A stretch of 64,000 nucleotides of DNA. Origin: Candidatus Latescibacterota bacterium. Its GTDB lineage: Bacteria; JAAXHH01. The translations under genes were made by a program, and so were the position numbers. This document shows positions 20,922 to 28,680 of the stretch, piece after piece. The stretch's first letter is position 1. Each line of letters opens with the position of its first letter. The stretch lies in NCBI GenBank assembly GCA_022821085.1, contig JAJEEG010000006.1, forward strand, positions 518,405-582,404, written 5' to 3'. The notes below the pieces were generated by a model, which was not told the origin of the DNA, did no database searches, and worked only from the letters and a program-made list of their open reading frames with translations.

Positions 20922-21686
20922 TTGCTGTTTGATACGCATACCCATCTCACGGACGAAGCATTCGACGATGACCGCGCCGAGGTGATCCAACGGGCGCTGG
21001 ACGCGGGCGTGGAACGCATGGTTGCCGTAGGGTACGATCTGAAGAGCAGCAGGGCCGCCGTGGCGCTCGCCGAAGACCGGGATTCGGTGTACGCCGCCGC
21101 GGGCATCCACCCCTGCCACGTCCACGAAGCCCGCGAAGAGGACTACCGGGAAATCGAGAAACTGCTCGAACATCCTTCCGTCATCGCCGTAGGCGAAACC
21201 GGCATCGACCTGCATTACGACCGGTCCACCTACCCGCTGCAGGAAACCTCGTTCAGAAGACACATGGAGTGGGGCGGAAGCACGGGATTGCCGGTTATCG
21301 TGCACGACCGGGACGCCCACGCCGAGGTCATGGCCATGCTGGACGAGTTTCCCGGCGAGGAAACGACCGCGATCCTGCACTGCTTTACCGGGGACGCCGC
21401 CATGGCCGAAAGGGCCGTTTCCATGGGATGCTTCCTGGGATTCGGCGGCATCGCGACATTCAAGAACTCGACGGTGGGCGAGGTGGTCTCCGGGTTGCCG
21501 CCGGAATGCATCCTTGTCGAAACGGACGCACCCTATCTCGCGCCCGTTCCCCACCGCGGACGCCGGAACGAACCATCATACATCGTAAGCACGGCCGAAG
21601 CGGTCGCCCGTCACCGGGCCGTTTCCGTGGATGAACTGGCACGGACCACAACCCAGAACGCGAACAAGGTGTTTCGAATCCATTGA
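20922..21686 (+). CDS. tatD: TatD family metal-dependent DNase
   Basis: Amidohydrolase-fold 3'-5' exonuclease/deoxyribonuclease. Metal ligands are in 'FDTHTHL', 'GETGIDLHYD', 'LHCFTG' and 'ETDAPYLAP', in the usual order. The start is uncertain: an in-frame ATG at 20820 would add 34 residues encoded by the repeat array, which the family lacks. TTG at 20922 gives the usual N-terminus 'LLFDTHTH'. It overlaps rsmA by four bases, so the two are translationally coupled. Confidence 0.9.
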   Translation: MLFDTHTHLTDEAFDDDRAEVIQRALDAGVERMVAVGYDLKSSRAAVALAEDRDSVYAAAGIHPCHVHEAREEDYREIEKLLEHPSVIAVGETGIDLHYDRSTYPLQETSFRRHMEWGGSTGLPVIVHDRDAHAEVMAMLDEFPGEETTAILHCFTGDAAMAERAVSMGCFLGFGGIATFKNSTVGEVVSGLPPECILVETDAPYLAPVPHRGRRNEPSYIVSTAEAVARHRAVSVDELARTTTQNANKVFRIH

Positions 21687-22555
21687 GTACGGTGCTCGAT
21701 CCTCCTGAAGACCTGCTGGCCGGCCTGCGCCGATCGGATTTTCGTCCATCCAGATCGAAGGGTCAGCACTTCCTGAACGATACGTCCGTCGCACGCCGCA
21801 TCATCGAATCGGCGGGCATAACGAAGGATACGGCCGTACTTGAAATCGGTCCGGGGGCCGGCGCGTTGACCCGTCACCTCGTCACCCTGGCCGGCGGCGT
21901 GACCGCCGTGGAAATCGATACCAGGCTGGCAGGAGTCCTCCAGGAAGCCTACGGCCGGTACGACCACCTGACCATCGTGAACGGGGACGTGCTCGATCTG
22001 GACCTGTCCGACCTGATGGGGAAGTACGGCGAAACCGGGTACGTGCTTGTGGCCAATCTGCCCTACGGGATAACAGGACCCGTCCTCGACCGGCTGATCG
22101 CCCATCGCGGGAAGATAAGGGGCGCGGTCATCATGGTTCAGCACGAAGTGGGCGGACGCCTGACGGCGCGTCCGGGTACGAAAGCCTACGGCGCGATAAC
22201 CGCCATCATGGCGTACCATTACCACGTGGAATCGCTGTTCCGGGTGGGCGGCGACCGGTTCGTTCCCCGTCCGGCGGTGGATTCGGTCGTACTCCGGTTG
22301 ACGCCCCATGAACGGCCGCCCGTTACGGTCAGGGATGCCGGCCTGTTGAACGTCGTGATCAAGTCGGCCTTTCAACACCGGCGCAAGATGCTGCACCACG
22401 CGATGAATCGCCTGGTTCCCGGTTCAGCCGGTTATCTTTCGGATCATACAGGCATCGACCTGAAACGACGCGGTGAAACACTGGACCTGAACGAGTTCGC
22501 GGTGCTTGCCGACGCGCTACTGGCGTTCCGGGACCACTATCAGGACGACTGCTGA
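21683..22555 (+). CDS. rsmA: 16S rRNA dimethyladenosine transferase (KsgA)
   Basis: Dimethylates A1518 and A1519 of 16S rRNA during 30S maturation. The family N-terminus 'KGQHFLND', SAM motif 'LEIGPGAGALTRHL', 'VANLPYGITGP' (catalytic NLPY) and 'FVPRPAVDSVVLRL' are all present. The start is a TTG that overlaps the tatD stop (TTGA). Length 290 residues is normal. Confidence 0.95.
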   Translation: MSTVLDPPEDLLAGLRRSDFRPSRSKGQHFLNDTSVARRIIESAGITKDTAVLEIGPGAGALTRHLVTLAGGVTAVEIDTRLAGVLQEAYGRYDHLTIVNGDVLDLDLSDLMGKYGETGYVLVANLPYGITGPVLDRLIAHRGKIRGAVIMVQHEVGGRLTARPGTKAYGAITAIMAYHYHVESLFRVGGDRFVPRPAVDSVVLRLTPHERPPVTVRDAGLLNVVIKSAFQHRRKMLHHAMNRLVPGSAGYLSDHTGIDLKRRGETLDLNEFAVLADALLAFRDHYQDDC

Positions 22556-22566
22556 CGGACCGCGAT

Positions 22567-23823
22567 ATGCGCTTCCGCTATACACATTCGGCCAGAACGC
22601 GAATGGCGATCAGAAAGAGCCAGCGCCGGTCGTACGCCCGGTACGCCCTCCTTGGAACGGCCGCGGTCGTGCTGCTGGCCCTCGCCGTGTGGATCATGCT
22701 TTATCAAGACCAGGCCAGGAAGGTCGTGGACTGGCTGCTGGATCGGCCCAACCCGGTTGCCGTGCCCGAACTCGAACGGACGTCCGCCTGGAAAACGGAC
22801 CAGGAGGCGTTTCACGCAATGGAAGCGGCCCTGTACGGTGCGTTCATGAATCTGCAGGTCACACCGGGCAGGATACGGGACACCGCGCCACGCACCGCGA
22901 CGGCCACGGGCCGTTGGAGACCACTGGAACGAAGCATCATCGTTTCGGGTGCTTATTCGCTTGCCGAATGCAATCTCGAGATCGCCAGGGCGGTCGTCCG
23001 CGCGGGCGGCAAGGTATCCCGTGCGGAGGAACGGACCAGGACCGGGGTGTTGCTGCTCGACATTACCTACGATGACGACGTAACCCATCGCCTCAATATA
23101 ACCCGCGACCCGGCAATCCGGCGAAAAACGGGTCGTCTTGCCGTCGTGATTGCGTATACGGACGGCGATCAGCGGGCCGTGGTCGAGGGACTTTCCGATT
23201 TCACCCGGCCCCTCACTTTCGCCTTGTTTCCCTGGGCCGACGGCGTAAACGAAATGGCCGGCGAACTCATGCGCGGCGATCACGAGGTGATGGCGCTGCT
23301 GCCCGTTCGACCGGCGTCAGACACCGCCGGTCTGCCGCGCAGGAGATCCGTGTCGACCACCCATTCGGAGCTGACCAACCGCCGCGTCGTGGAAGACGCC
23401 CTTTCCACGCTACCCGGGGCCCAGGGCGTACTTCGGTATCCTGCCGGCCGCATGGACAATGAAGCCGCGGTGCTGGCCCCCGTGCTGGACGAACTGGGCA
23501 AGCGGAACCTGTACTACCTGGACAACCCGGGCGGGCCCGGCGGGGCAGGAGGGCCACGTGGTTCGGGCGGGCCCGGCAGGCCGGAGGACCGGGGCGGGGA
23601 ATACGGCCCGCTTCGGGCCTGGGGTGTGCTCGATCCCTTGTACAACCCCGTAATCATATCCATGAACCTGGACCGCGCGTCGCTATCCGCCCTTGAAGAC
23701 ACCCGCGCCATCGTCATCGCCGATGCCAGGCCCCATACGCTTCAAGTACTGATGAACCGGATGAGATATCTTGAAATCAGAGGAATCGAGTTCGTACGGG
23801 TTTCCGACCTCGTGGACAACTGA
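22567..23823 (+). CDS. Divergent polysaccharide deacetylase-like protein (YibQ/DUF610), catalytic residues lost
   Basis: A membrane-anchored protein (one TM segment at about residues 28-50). From about residue 190 it follows PF04748: 'RLAVVIAYTDGD', 'RPLTFALFPWADG', 'HEVMALLPVRP' and 'LYYLDNP'. In the family these are VIDD, tlAvlP, HEVllHLPM and flD. Here the Asp-Asp is Ala-Tyr, the His of HLP is Leu, and the NHMGS His block reads 'LRYPAGRMDN'. Enzymatic activity is therefore unlikely. A Gly/Pro-rich insert at about residues 319-345 is repeat-encoded. The gene starts 11 bases after rsmA. Confidence 0.72.
   Translation: MRFRYTHSARTRMAIRKSQRRSYARYALLGTAAVVLLALAVWIMLYQDQARKVVDWLLDRPNPVAVPELERTSAWKTDQEAFHAMEAALYGAFMNLQVTPGRIRDTAPRTATATGRWRPLERSIIVSGAYSLAECNLEIARAVVRAGGKVSRAEERTRTGVLLLDITYDDDVTHRLNITRDPAIRRKTGRLAVVIAYTDGDQRAVVEGLSDFTRPLTFALFPWADGVNEMAGELMRGDHEVMALLPVRPASDTAGLPRRRSVSTTHSELTNRRVVEDALSTLPGAQGVLRYPAGRMDNEAAVLAPVLDELGKRNLYYLDNPGGPGGAGGPRGSGGPGRPEDRGGEYGPLRAWGVLDPLYNPVIISMNLDRASLSALEDTRAIVIADARPHTLQVLMNRMRYLEIRGIEFVRVSDLVDN
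23526..23600. repeat. Gly/Pro-encoding GC-rich repeat
   Basis: Repeated GGCGGGCCCGGCGGG-like units encode a Gly/Pro/Arg run within the deacetylase-like protein, in frame. Confidence 0.7.
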
Positions 23824-23838
23824 CACCGGAGATCACCC

Positions 23839-24597
23839 ATGGTAAAACTGAGTGTATGCGTAGACCAGGTCGCCGCCCTGCGGAATATCGCGAAACGGGG
23901 GGAACCCGATCCAATGACCGCGGTCATGATGTCCCAGGTGAGTGGGGCGGACGCCGTAACGATTTCGTGGGCCGCCGACGATTCGCTTTATCTCGGCGGA
24001 GAATATGACATTATCCGGCAGCTCGTGCACACGCACCTTAACGTGATCGTGCCGCCGGTCCAGGAAGCCCTGCGTAGTATCTTGACGATTTCGCCGGATA
24101 TGGTTACCCTTGTTCCCGAGGGCTACGGGTACGCCGGACTGAACAACGATTGGTCCGATACGCCATGGCCCGAAGGCGATTCCCTGGAACGGCCGGTGGA
24201 ACGCATGCTGAAGGCCCTGCAGGATAAAGGGATCCTGACGAGCATATTGATTACGCCCACCGCGTCGCATGTCAGGCAATGCGCCGAACTAAAGGCCGAC
24301 TACGTCCATCTTGACGCAAGCCGGTTCGTGCAGGCCGCCGGTCCCGAAGAGAAGGGCCGGATGTTCCAGGAAATCGCCGGTACGGCCCGGACCGCGGCAC
24401 GGTTGAACATGGGCGTTTCCCTGGGACGCGGCGTCGATTACCGGACGGCGGCGGACCTGGCGGGTATCGCCGAGGTGGAGGAAATGGTGGTGGGCTATGC
24501 CGTGGCCGTGCGTGCGATGACCATCGGGTTCGAGCAAGCCGTCCGCGACATGGTCGGCATCATCCGCCACGCGCCGAGGTCCCAGGCAGACTGGTAA
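23839..24597 (+). CDS. PdxJ-like protein lacking active-site residues
   Basis: Aligns end to end with pyridoxine 5'-phosphate synthase (252 residues): 'LSVCVDQVAALRNIAKRG', 'MVTLVPEGYGYAGLNND', and a C-terminal half matching the 'VNAGHGLxYHN ... LNIGHAIIGRA' region. The catalytic parts are replaced: the HLREDRRHI block reads 'ISWAADDSLYL', the His after IDH is Gln, the 'EMA' Glu is absent, and AGHGL reads 'LGRGV'. It cannot be a normal PdxJ. The TIM-barrel core and some phosphate-site Gly residues remain. It is the second gene of a four-gene unit. Confidence 0.72.
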   Translation: MVKLSVCVDQVAALRNIAKRGEPDPMTAVMMSQVSGADAVTISWAADDSLYLGGEYDIIRQLVHTHLNVIVPPVQEALRSILTISPDMVTLVPEGYGYAGLNNDWSDTPWPEGDSLERPVERMLKALQDKGILTSILITPTASHVRQCAELKADYVHLDASRFVQAAGPEEKGRMFQEIAGTARTAARLNMGVSLGRGVDYRTAADLAGIAEVEEMVVGYAVAVRAMTIGFEQAVRDMVGIIRHAPRSQADW

Positions 24598-24646
24598 CCC
24601 GTCCAGCCGCGCCGCACGCAGAAGCGGCGCCGAAAGGAACAGCACT

Positions 24647-26266
24647 ATTTACAAGCGCATTTCATTCCTGGCGTTTCTCGCCGTCACCCTGCTAGGCGCG
24701 GTCCTTGTCTCCCCGACCATCAGGCTGTGGTTTTCGTCTCCCGAGTCCATCGAAGCGCTTTCGCCGGAAGAAAAGAAAGTGCTATACGGCCAGTCCACGG
24801 TACCGGGCATCGACCTGGCCGGCGGTTATCGTCTGGTTGCAGGCATGGACCTGTCCCGGTACACGGAACGGGGCAGGGCACGGGCGGTGGAAGGCCTGGT
24901 CGAGAACTGGCGGCGGCGCCTTAACGCCTTCGGGATCTCCGAACCGGTCATTACCGTGCGGGAGAACGACACGTTCGAAATCGTCGTGCCCCGGAGCGCG
25001 GACACCGGTCTCGTAAGCAGGATAATCCGGGAATCCGGCGAGATCACACTGCATTTGTTCAAGGACGGCGCGGAAGTACAGGCGTTGCGGCAACGTATTG
25101 ACGATGCCCTGAGTGAGCGCGCCTCGGCCGTCGCGGCATCGGCTGCCGCAGCCTCGGACGGACCTGGAGCATTCAGCGCGTTGCTTGCACGCATTACGGT
25201 GGAGGAAGGGATCGGAGACATCGCGGTCCGGGAAGACAACCTGGATACCGTAAAGGCCATACTGGCCGATTCAACGGTACAGGCCGGCATTCGGGCCTTC
25301 AACCTGGCCAATCCACCCGCCGGCGCCTTCGCATGGGCTTCCGAACCGGTGGAACGCGGAGGCAGGCTGTTCCATCCGCTCTACTTCATCAACCAGGATA
25401 TAGACCTAAACGTGCAGCCGGTGGCATCGGCCGTGGTCAGCGACGCCTCGGTAACGGCGAACCGGGGCGCATACGCGGTACGCCTGTTTCTGCAGGACGA
25501 GGGCAGAGAGAGTCTGGCCAACCTGTCCAGCGCCAACGCGGGAAACCGCGTGGCCATCAAGATGAACGGCCAGGTGTACGTGACGTTGAATATACAGGGC
25601 AGAATACCTGACGGTCGGATTGAAGTGCCTGGAGGAGACTCGCTGGAAGAGGCCCGCGCCCTGGCGGTCATCCTGGAATCCGCGTCGCCGGCGCTGGACG
25701 TAACGCTGCCGGATCAGGCGGTGGAGGCGCCTTCCCCGCTCGGTGAAGGGGCCGTGGTCAGCGCGGCCGGCGCCGGCGCGATCGGTCTCGGATTGCTTTG
25801 CGCAATGTTCGTTATCCGCTACCGGGCCGCCGGCCTGCTCTTCGTCACGGGGATGCTGCACTATCTGATCATGACCGGAGCGGTGCTGAGGCTGTGGAAC
25901 ATCGCCGGGATTGCGCCCTATTTCACCCTCGCCGGCGCAGTGGGATTACTCGGAGCGGCCCTCGTCTTCGTCTCCGTGCATCTCTGGATCTTCGAATACC
26001 TCCGCGCGGAATCCGGAACGGAGTCTTCGGTCCGGCAGGACGTCATGGCCTCGCTCGAGAAGATCAGGCCCGTCCTGGTCTGGACGCATATCATGCTGCT
26101 GCTCGTATCGGTGAGCCTGGTCGTAGTCGGCACCGACGCCGTCGTCAATTTCGGCCTCGTGCTGTTTTCCGGCGCGGCCGGCAGCCTGCTCACCTGCATG
26201 TGCTGGACGAACATGCTGCTGTCCTCCCTGGTGGCGGACTGGCAAATCAGGAAGTTGAGCGTATGA
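24647..26266 (+). CDS. SecD-like protein, apparent ATT start
   Basis: A 539-residue SecD homologue. With a start at ATT (24647) it begins IYKRISFLAFLAV, giving the expected first TM segment, and has GAAAGGA 8 bases upstream. No ATG, GTG or TTG occurs in this frame between the stop at 24518-24520 and GTG 24779; starting there would delete TM1. The P1 region 'FGISEPVITVRENDTFEIVVP' and the C-terminal five TM segments follow. The SecD motif 'AVDANVLIFERIREE' reads 'FVSVHLWIFEYLRAE', losing the Asp needed for proton-driven export. Confidence 0.72.
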   Translation: MYKRISFLAFLAVTLLGAVLVSPTIRLWFSSPESIEALSPEEKKVLYGQSTVPGIDLAGGYRLVAGMDLSRYTERGRARAVEGLVENWRRRLNAFGISEPVITVRENDTFEIVVPRSADTGLVSRIIRESGEITLHLFKDGAEVQALRQRIDDALSERASAVAASAAAASDGPGAFSALLARITVEEGIGDIAVREDNLDTVKAILADSTVQAGIRAFNLANPPAGAFAWASEPVERGGRLFHPLYFINQDIDLNVQPVASAVVSDASVTANRGAYAVRLFLQDEGRESLANLSSANAGNRVAIKMNGQVYVTLNIQGRIPDGRIEVPGGDSLEEARALAVILESASPALDVTLPDQAVEAPSPLGEGAVVSAAGAGAIGLGLLCAMFVIRYRAAGLLFVTGMLHYLIMTGAVLRLWNIAGIAPYFTLAGAVGLLGAALVFVSVHLWIFEYLRAESGTESSVRQDVMASLEKIRPVLVWTHIMLLLVSVSLVVVGTDAVVNFGLVLFSGAAGSLLTCMCWTNMLLSSLVADWQIRKLSV

Positions 26267-27114
26267 TGGGAAACGGCCTCGCCGCATTGTATGGCAAACT
26301 GATCGACCGACCGGGGGGCGTTTACACCTTCGCCGCCATACTGGCCGCGGCGGGGATTGCCGCAACGGCGATGAAGACGGAACATGCCGTCGACGACGGC
26401 CTGGTGGCGCTGCTCATGTCCGGCGACCTGCTCTTCGGCCTCTTCGTGACCATGCTGATCGTGCTGGTCATCGTCGGCGCCCGGATCGACGACCGGCCGG
26501 GCAAAAGCATCGCGTTGACCCTCGGCGTACTGGCGGCCGGAAGTATCGTGCGGATGCTGCTGCCGTTTGCCCGTTCGGTCGACTGGCTGGCAGAATGGAA
26601 CGGGGCCATGCTCGGCATCATGATCATCACCCTCTACCTGTCCCTCCGCATAGGCGCCCGTTTTGCCGTGGCGGCCATGGGTTGCGCGCTTTACACGATG
26701 TTCGTCACGGCGGGGATAACCCTTGGCCTGGCAGATCGGATTACGGTGCCGGGCATACTGACGCTTACGTCCGCGGGGGCCCTGGCAGTGGTAATGGCCT
26801 TCCTGGGTTACAGCCTGGTCAGAAGCCGGATTGAAACCGCGCGGCGAGAACCGGTCAGCCATTCCGTGCGTACCGGCATGGTGCAGTCCATGCCCTTTCT
26901 GGTGCTGGCCGGCCTGGCCGTGCTGTTGATCGCCGCCCCGCTGGCTGTCGTTACGGACGGTTACCTGAGTGATCTCGGTCTGTACCTGATGGTCGGCGGT
27001 CCCGTTGGCGCCTGCGCCGTGTTGATGTCGGCGATTCCGCTCGCCGCGATGACCCAAAACGTCCATTTCGAGGCCGGCGCACCCCCGCGGCGTGGAGGCC
27101 GCCGGCAACGGTAG
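26263..27114 (+). CDS. SecF-like membrane protein, diverged
   Basis: A 283-residue protein with about six TM segments whose ATG overlaps the SecD-like stop (ATGA). The segment 'LYLSLRIGARFAVAAMGCALYTMFVTAG' matches the SecF '[27 protein letters not shown]' region, and 'FLGYSLVRSRIETAR' stands where SecF has 'IGYSLNDTVVVFDRIRE'. The conserved HD and NDT residues are missing and the periplasmic P4 domain looks short. With the preceding gene it forms a degenerate SecDF pair. Confidence 0.65.
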   Translation: MMGNGLAALYGKLIDRPGGVYTFAAILAAAGIAATAMKTEHAVDDGLVALLMSGDLLFGLFVTMLIVLVIVGARIDDRPGKSIALTLGVLAAGSIVRMLLPFARSVDWLAEWNGAMLGIMIITLYLSLRIGARFAVAAMGCALYTMFVTAGITLGLADRITVPGILTLTSAGALAVVMAFLGYSLVRSRIETARREPVSHSVRTGMVQSMPFLVLAGLAVLLIAAPLAVVTDGYLSDLGLYLMVGGPVGACAVLMSAIPLAAMTQNVHFEAGAPPRRGGRRQR

Positions 27115-27162: not shown

Positions 27163-28680
27163 ATGGCCGACCAGCCCAACATCCTCCTTATCCTGTCCGA
27201 CCAGATGGTCGCCGCGTTGACCGGCGCCTATGGTCATCCCGTCGTACGGACCCCCAACCTGGACCGCATGGTTGAGACCGGTGTGCGTTACGATGCCGCC
27301 TACACCGCCTTTCCCCTTTGCGCGCCCGGCCGGGCCTGTCTGATGACGGGAAGGCACGCTTCGGAGATCGGCGCATGGGACAACGGCGCATTGCTGGCCG
27401 CCGACCAGCCGACCTTCGCCCACTACCTGGCCCGTGCCGGTTACGATACCGTGCTGTCCGGCAAGATGCACTTCATCGGTCCGGACCAGCTGCACGGTTT
27501 CAGGATGCGGCTGACCACCGACATCTACTCCTCGGATTTCGACTGGGTCAAGCCGGAGTGGATCCGCCTGAAGGAGACCGGAGGCGAGGACTGCGAGCGG
27601 GTGATGGCCGACCGGCCGGCCTACAACGCGGCGGGTTACACGGGCGACGGCGTGCGGATAGGCGTCTGGCACAACGCCCTCAGCTACGACGAGGAAACGC
27701 ATTTCCGCGCGGTCGAATACCTGCGGTCCAGGAAGCCGGGCGGCGGAGAAGAACCGTTCCTGCTTTGCGCGTCTTACCACCATCCCCACGAACCGTTCTG
27801 GCCGCCCGAGTCTTACTGGGCGCGGTATGAAGGGGAGGAAATCGAACTGCCCGGATTTCCGGCCGACCTGGATGAACGCCATTCCATGATGGACCGGAAC
27901 CTGAACGCCTATCACGGTACCGGCCGTTACGACCTGCGGGACGAAGAGGGCCTCTACCGGCTTCGCCGCGCCTATTACGGGCTGGTGAGCTACATGGACG
28001 ACAAGGTCGGCGGCCTGCTGGACACCCTGGACGAGACCGGCCTGGCGGAAAACACGGTGGTGGTATTCGCCAGCGACCACGGCGACATGTTGTGCGAACG
28101 AGGCATGGTGCAGAAACGATGTTTCTACGAGTGGTCCTGCCGGGTGCCCCTCATCGTCCGCTATCCGGACGGTTGGCGGGCGGGGACGGCCTGTGCCCAT
28201 CCCGTGTCCCTGATCGATCTGCTGCCGACCTTCTGCGATCTCGCGGGCGTCGAGGACCGGCTTCCCCACGACGGCGAGAGCCTGGTATCCTCCTCCTCGG
28301 ACGAAACGGACCGCGTGGTCTTCGCCCAGGCCCACGAGGCCGTGGGCATGCCCTGCATCATGGCGAGGCAGGGACGGTACAAGTACCAGTACATCCACGG
28401 GTACGCGCCGCGCCTATTCGATTTGGACGACGATCCGGGCGAATGGCATGATCTCTCGGGCGATGACGCGCACCGCCAGGTGGCAGCCCGGCTTCGCGAC
28501 TGCATCCTCGACCGGTTCGATCCGGATGCCATCGCGGAAGCAAACCTGTCCAGCCTGTACCGGCGGCGCCTGATCCGGGACACCATGGCGCGCCACGGAC
28601 GGACGTGGAGCCATGAGCCGGAATTCGATCATCGTCGCGGCGCCTTGAACCAGTACGTGCCGCCATCCGGAAAACAGTAA
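27163..28680 (+). CDS. Choline-sulfatase-like sulfatase
   Basis: Type I sulfatase. The formylglycine signature is 'LCAPGRACLMTGR' (C-x-P-x-R, about residues 50-62); metal ligands include the N-terminal 'LILSDQ' Asp and 'FASDHGDM'. The blocks 'SGKMHFIGPDQLHGF' and 'LTTDIYSSDFDW' are characteristic of choline-sulfatase (BetC)-type enzymes, so choline-O-sulfate or a related small sulfate ester is the most likely substrate. No signal peptide is seen, so it is probably cytoplasmic. The last ten residues are encoded by a direct repeat that is duplicated just after the stop codon. Confidence 0.87.
   Translation: MADQPNILLILSDQMVAALTGAYGHPVVRTPNLDRMVETGVRYDAAYTAFPLCAPGRACLMTGRHASEIGAWDNGALLAADQPTFAHYLARAGYDTVLSGKMHFIGPDQLHGFRMRLTTDIYSSDFDWVKPEWIRLKETGGEDCERVMADRPAYNAAGYTGDGVRIGVWHNALSYDEETHFRAVEYLRSRKPGGGEEPFLLCASYHHPHEPFWPPESYWARYEGEEIELPGFPADLDERHSMMDRNLNAYHGTGRYDLRDEEGLYRLRRAYYGLVSYMDDKVGGLLDTLDETGLAENTVVVFASDHGDMLCERGMVQKRCFYEWSCRVPLIVRYPDGWRAGTACAHPVSLIDLLPTFCDLAGVEDRLPHDGESLVSSSSDETDRVVFAQAHEAVGMPCIMARQGRYKYQYIHGYAPRLFDLDDDPGEWHDLSGDDAHRQVAARLRDCILDRFDPDAIAEANLSSLYRRRLIRDTMARHGRTWSHEPEFDHRRGALNQYVPPSGKQ

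Follow-up and report, generated by a model that had tools for sequence, protein, structure and literature searches.

Apparent in-place divergence of an ancestral deacetylase-pdxJ-secD-secF cluster in a Candidatus Latescibacterota lineage

RESULTS

Four diverged housekeeping homologues follow rsmA

The window analyzed here is a 64,000-nucleotide (nt) stretch from the genome of a Candidatus Latescibacterota bacterium (GenBank assembly GCA_022821085.1, contig JAJEEG010000006.1, positions 518,405 to 582,404 of the forward strand). On the 3′ side of metG, tatD, and rsmA, it carries four genes with open frames on the same strand, which we named deacL, pdxL, secDL, and secFL as diverged homologues of the PF04748 deacetylases, PdxJ, SecD, and SecF, respectively (Table 1). 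The genes are separated by gaps of 11 nt (rsmA-deacL), 15 nt (deacL-pdxL), and 49 nt (pdxL-secDL), and secDL and secFL overlap by 4 nt. A first-pass annotation of this DNA had described four packed homologues behind rsmA from which the function-defining residues were gone, and reading frames, Pfam matches, and residue comparisons agreed with that description. The locus was compared across 16 genomes of the phylum (G000 to G015; G000 is the genome of the window).

Table 1. Features of the cluster and its flanks, in window coordinates
Feature	Position	Strand	Remarks
deacL	22567..23823	+	Divergent PF04748 (SddA/YibQ-type) deacetylase; apparent N-terminal membrane anchor; no zinc ligands
pdxL	23839..24597	+	PdxJ-fold protein without PdxJ active site
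Shine-Dalgarno sequence of secDL	24633-24640	+	AAAGGAAC; 7-8 nt 5′ of start codon
Putative ATT start codon of secDL	24647-24649	+	Conserved ATT/ATC position
secDL	24647..26266	+	SecD homologue; P1 head retained; Asp of AVDAN gone; invariant His at Asn position
secFL	26263..27114	+	SecF homologue without periplasmic domain; ATGA overlap with secDL
rsmA (ksgA), canonical	21683..22555	+	TIGR00755, 233 bits (cut-off, 171); anchors conserved metG-tatD-rsmA order
Choline-sulfatase-like gene	27163-28680		TIGR03417, 441 bits (cut-off, 433); comes after secFL

PdxL matched the PdxJ Pfam profile (PF03740, 140 bits; cut-off, 24.5), and the best PDB matches of its predicted model (predicted local distance difference test score [pLDDT], 64) were all PdxJ, led by 3gk0 (E = 6.4e-17). 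While PdxL thus shares the profile and predicted TIM-barrel elements with PdxJ, 12 of the 16 active-site or loop residues were changed and only 4 were retained in the window; most other PdxJs examined had the full set of 16. (The E. coli PdxJ reference row agrees with the chain sequence over residues 6 to 238.) The score on the equivalog model NF003625 was 132 bits (cut-off, 190). Canonical PdxJ has 40 conserved columns; PdxL kept 14 of them, 16 had become variable, and 10 were fixed again on another invariant residue. The last group included H45 (to S), E72 (to I), E153 (to H), and H193 (to R), which are catalytic positions in E. coli PdxJ; the fixation of new residues at these four columns is unexpected under decay. 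The positions of R47, R50, and H52 varied among PdxLs, glycines of the phosphate-binding loops were retained, and S43, H157, and R197 were new invariant polar residues. A profile scan of the genome contigs with the PdxL alignment gave no match outside the phylum, and no bacterial PdxJ pseudoenzyme was found in titles and abstracts on PdxJ and pseudoenzymes.

SecDL contained the P1 head (SecDF_P1_head, PF22599, 50.6 bits; cut-off, 27) and scored 138 bits on the SecD equivalog TIGR01129 (cut-off, 244.4). The motif VD[AG]N was present in 48 of 48 comparison SecDs, and its Asp was missing from every SecDL. The Asn of AVDAN was replaced by an invariant His, located two residues from the lost proton-path Asp. 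Of 62 conserved SecD columns, 15 were kept, 6 were fixed on a new residue, and 41 were variable. SecFL matched PF02355 (29 bits; cut-off, 20.5) and reached 18.8 bits on the SecF equivalog TIGR00966 (cut-off, 160), so that none of PdxL, SecDL, and SecFL attained the NCBIfam equivalog cut-off. The FHD and NDT residues were gone from SecFL, as was the Asp partner; beyond the residues named in the first-pass annotation, the whole periplasmic domain has been lost. The alignment showed a hydrophobic stretch between transmembrane (TM) helices TM1 and TM2 instead of this domain, and in the all-helical AlphaFold2 model (pLDDT, 79) helices 55 to 74 and 79 to 98 stand in its place. The best PDB matches of the model were weak (E = 9e-3) and comprised the membrane domain of SecDF and RND pumps. 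SecDL-SecFL have the P1 head, the SecD-SecF order, and a homologous TM region in common with SecD/SecF and fused SecDF (RND superfamily), but differ by the loss of both proton-path Asp positions and by two predicted TM helices replacing the SecF periplasmic domain.

DeacL passed the PF04748 profile (86.3 bits; cut-off, 27.5), the family of the E. coli denuded-glycan deacetylase SddA/YibQ. Its motifs were altered from VIDD to VIAY, from HLPMEP to LLPVRP, and from NNHMGS to LRYPAGR, and all four positions corresponding to the zinc ligands of SddA (D31, D32, H78, and H123; PMC12440217) were changed in the window. An apparent N-terminal export signal or anchor is shared with SddA/YibQ and with ATU2773 of Agrobacterium, a natural PF04748 protein that, like DeacL, has no zinc ligands and is retained beside envC (PMC12440217). 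Unlike for ATU2773 and SddA, the neighbors of deacL are pdxL and secDL, and an intact form is found at the same locus in G015.

The cluster is conserved and under purifying selection

Each of the 16 genomes had SecDL and SecFL homologues, and 15 had PdxL. The order rsmA-deacL-pdxL-secDL-secFL was found in G000 to G012 and in G014, and pdxL and secDL were syntenic in 15 of the 16 genomes. Whether the orthologues stay together had been raised by the first-pass annotation as a point to check; in G015, an unrelated gene follows secDL and a SecF-like gene, likewise without periplasmic domain, is located on another contig (L244, 6812-7747; G015:C172) beside apparent transketolase halves. The secDL gene of G015 is split, with L057 carrying the other half (99-nt exact overlap). 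In G013, deacL and pdxL were not found on the contig, which ends inside secDL (L053, G013:C337), and this genome (99% complete) gave no pdxL or PF04748 match elsewhere; the two genes may have been lost or may fall into a gap of the assembly.

The pattern of residue loss recurred across genomes with 32 to 97% protein sequence identity, and all four frames were open in each genome with a complete locus, in line with the first-pass annotation, which had noted intact frames and proposed a test for purifying selection. The ratio of nonsynonymous to synonymous substitutions (dN/dS) was calculated pairwise (Nei-Gojobori) for pairs with a dS of 0.1 to 1.2. The medians were 0.158 for pdxL, 0.191 for secDL, 0.251 for secFL, and 0.346 for deacL, all well below 1, and 0.121 for metG, 0.249 for tatD, 0.237 for rsmA, and 0.121 for canonical pdxJ. 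All four genes are therefore constrained, deacL the least. Recurrence across genomes together with purifying selection shows that the pattern is more than chance.

The same gene order carries intact genes in other phyla

The order metG-tatD-rsmA is common to the phylum and to other phyla. The complete series metG-tatD-rsmA-deac-pdxJ-secD-secF was present in the unrelated genomes G354, G084, G225, and G222, and deac-pdxJ-secD-secF in G151, G021, G288, G286, G081, G132, and G269. The PdxJs of these clusters outside the phylum had 15 to 16 of the 16 residues, and their SecDs had VDAN. The occurrence of the same order with intact PdxJ and SecD provides good support for the locus representing an old housekeeping cluster that diverged in place, not a newly assembled unit.

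PdxL was degenerate in the four genera in which it was seen, as were SecDL and SecFL in all five; pdxL, secDL, and secFL lost their catalytic or proton-path residues before the sampled genera split. The zinc ligands of the cluster deacetylase were all present in G015, partly gone in G014 and G001, and completely lost only in the genus of the window among the phylum members compared. The losses were therefore stepwise, and the proposal of a joint loss in all four genes did not hold, the G015 SecF-like gene also lying elsewhere. In addition to the partly degraded cluster copy, a further PF04748 gene with a high score (L186, G014:C186:594-1226) is present in G014.

Outside the phylum, G151 (L101, 6616-7710) and G288 (L107, 2698-3771) have a deacetylase-like gene without zinc ligands beside intact pdxJ and secD, which indicates that this gene is readily lost. 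Degenerate PdxJ homologues were also seen in seven other families: L098 (G070), L126 (G335), L120 (G359), L178 (G069), L162 (G060), L168 (G068), and L169 (G089). A PF04748 gene directly adjoins the degenerate PdxJ in three of the seven (G070, G335, and G069), and in the families covered by a search for a second copy no second PdxJ match was obtained.

Canonical PdxJ and SecDF are encoded elsewhere in the genome

Canonical copies of both functions, whose presence in the same genome had been an initial question, were found in G000. A fused SecDF of 900 amino acids is encoded at C5:29037 (442 bits; cut-off, 244), and a second PdxJ with catalytic residues present at C1:2761889 (NF003626, 347 bits; cut-off, 222). 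In the tree, the fused SecDF of the phylum itself fell together with SecDL on one side of a branch with a support of 96/94. This grouping favors a duplication within the lineage as the likely origin of SecDL, after which the copy keeping the function would have been fused; transfer as the origin of canonical SecDF was not favored, as the tree places it with SecDL. A comparable arrangement is known from Streptomyces coelicolor, where separated secD-secF at a conserved place coexist with a fused secDF elsewhere. The part of that account considered here (PMC4139356) reports no loss of proton-path residues, whereas in our case divergence has affected the separated copy, with duplication within the lineage being preferred to transfer by the tree.

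The PdxL sequences formed one fully supported clade in the PdxJ tree. The canonical PdxJ of the sampled f1 and f2 members grouped with those of G142, G077, and G076 from other phyla with 100% support in the SH-like approximate likelihood ratio test (SH-aLRT), and that of G015 belonged to another subtype. Most members thus have, as their working PdxJ, a different subtype shared with other phyla, which likely replaced the resident one by transfer. G076 itself has two PdxJ subtypes (L160 and L161), one of which groups with the phylum's canonical PdxJ.

secDL appears to start at a conserved ATT or ATC codon

No usable ATG, GTG, or TTG was present in the secDL frame. Instead, 14 of the 15 genomes carry a strong Shine-Dalgarno sequence (AAAGGAAC or a near variant; GGAGG in G001 and G014) and, 7 to 8 nt further on, an ATT or ATC codon with the first membrane helix directly behind it. 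An in-frame stop lies 5 to 19 codons upstream of this codon in several genomes, and between the upstream stop and ATT/ATC no in-frame ATG, GTG, or TTG was present in L041, L044, L045, L049, L050, L051, and L054. The G015 gene has an ATG four codons upstream. A GTG at position 24779 was ruled out as start codon, since the first TM helix would be left out upstream of it and the Shine-Dalgarno-ATT arrangement is conserved. As a control we inspected infC, a gene autoregulated by translation initiation factor 3 (IF3) for which a non-AUG start is expected; ATT behind a strong Shine-Dalgarno sequence was present in 14 of 14 genomes of the phylum that were read.

Translation of secDL would thus initiate at ATT/ATC. 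The combination of a conserved non-AUG start and a strong Shine-Dalgarno sequence is shared with infC (AUU) and with S. aureus cvfC1 (AUU) and ccpN (AUA), and in S. aureus, AUU/AUA starts with strong Shine-Dalgarno sequences reach about 10% of the expression obtained with AUG (PMC13009471). Different from these genes, secDL is a SecD paralogue within an operon, and its initiation codon was deduced from sequence alone. Since secFL overlaps secDL by ATGA in the genus of the window, both membrane genes would depend on the weak start there. The choline-sulfatase-like gene downstream of the cluster was restricted to this genus among the genomes seen.

DISCUSSION

We consider it probable that the residents of an ancestral cluster have moved away from their original activities, which are carried out by other copies in the genome. 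The residue comparisons suggest that the original activities of all four products have been lost, and as selection nevertheless persists, the four genes probably acquired a new job. The persistence at one place could have another cause: each gene may have been kept for its own separate reason, with adjacency being inherited order. This possibility, which shares the same history and disputes only joint action, falls somewhat short of an even chance in our estimation. It accounts for the same order where the genes are ordinary, for the later and thus not simultaneous loss in deacL, for the detached secFL of G015, and for the separate degradation of the deacetylase or PdxJ in other lineages. It explains less well that the changes in pdxL, secDL, and secFL all predate the split of the sampled genera and that the cluster remains together in G001 to G012 and G014.

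Alternatively, the proteins could be enzymes and transporters of altered specificity, with PdxL acting on another phosphorylated substrate and SecDL-SecFL being energized via a replacement residue, for example the newly invariant His. The retained phosphate-loop glycines, the invariant S43, H157, and R197, and the proximity of this His to the lost Asp, two residues away, would fit such a function. However, the R47, R50, and H52 positions are variable in PdxL, SecFL lacks the Asp partner, and no zinc ligand is left in DeacL of the window's genus, so that we regard altered specificity as unlikely.

Operon copies are usually lost after a second copy takes over. Slow decay of redundant, functionless copies would agree with the functional copies elsewhere, the relaxed constraint on deacL, and the 41 of 62 conserved SecD columns that are now variable. 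Nevertheless, it is very improbable, given that the frames are open wherever the locus is complete, that pdxL (0.158) and secDL (0.19) fall between metG (0.12) and rsmA (0.24) in dN/dS, and that the Shine-Dalgarno sequence and start of secDL are conserved; dN/dS and open frames led us to reject pseudogene decay. Ordinary divergence of the genome's only pdxJ and secDF, although the cluster occupies the ancestral place and intact relatives exist at the same locus, is refuted by the canonical copies elsewhere and retains next to no probability.

Within the favored reading of divergence from the original activities, the following scenario can be drawn. The SecDF genes would have been duplicated, with the duplicate being fused and taking over export and the resident becoming SecDL. 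The resident proteins might act together as a nonenzymatic set, in which DeacL would be a membrane-anchored, metal-free periplasmic glycan-binding protein, SecDL-SecFL a membrane complex of the RND type that extends a P1 arm into the periplasm but has no proton drive, and PdxL a cytosolic barrel whose pocket has been remodelled and which serves as ligand sensor or scaffold. Owing to the AUU/AUC start, synthesis of SecDL (and of SecFL via ATGA in the genus of the window) would be low and sensitive to IF3. The single new envelope module that had been envisaged may exist, and we put forward only tentatively, and with some doubt, a phylum-wide noncatalytic envelope module derived from a retired operon with an AUU-gated and IF3-linked membrane part.

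The retention of SecFL in G015 despite its detachment speaks for the favored reading. Several points weigh against it. Joint action of the four products is the least firm part of the scenario, given that their adjacency is inherited and that one genome has a detached secFL; any interaction or shared function would be putative. The four genes probably did not form one functional unit even in the ancestral state, and their persistence at one place may therefore be operon inertia. DeacL evolves faster (dN/dS, 0.35), and G013, where the contig ends inside secDL, yielded neither deacL nor pdxL. The stems of PdxL (1.8) and SecDL are long, which makes their deep placement less certain than the gene order. 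Finally, the loss of known active-site residues may leave other catalysis possible.

The case would belong to a known kind, that of paralogues repurposed in place. For annotation, the locus carries a warning, since profile matches would name these genes pdxJ and secDF and automatic gene callers are expected to miss the AUU/AUC start of secDL. A conserved AUU/AUC start on a gene other than infC in uncultured bacteria would join the small number of conserved non-AUG starts described so far. With the old pdxJ, secD, and secF kept under selection and outgroups showing the original state, the cluster would offer a stepwise case of housekeeping genes becoming something else.

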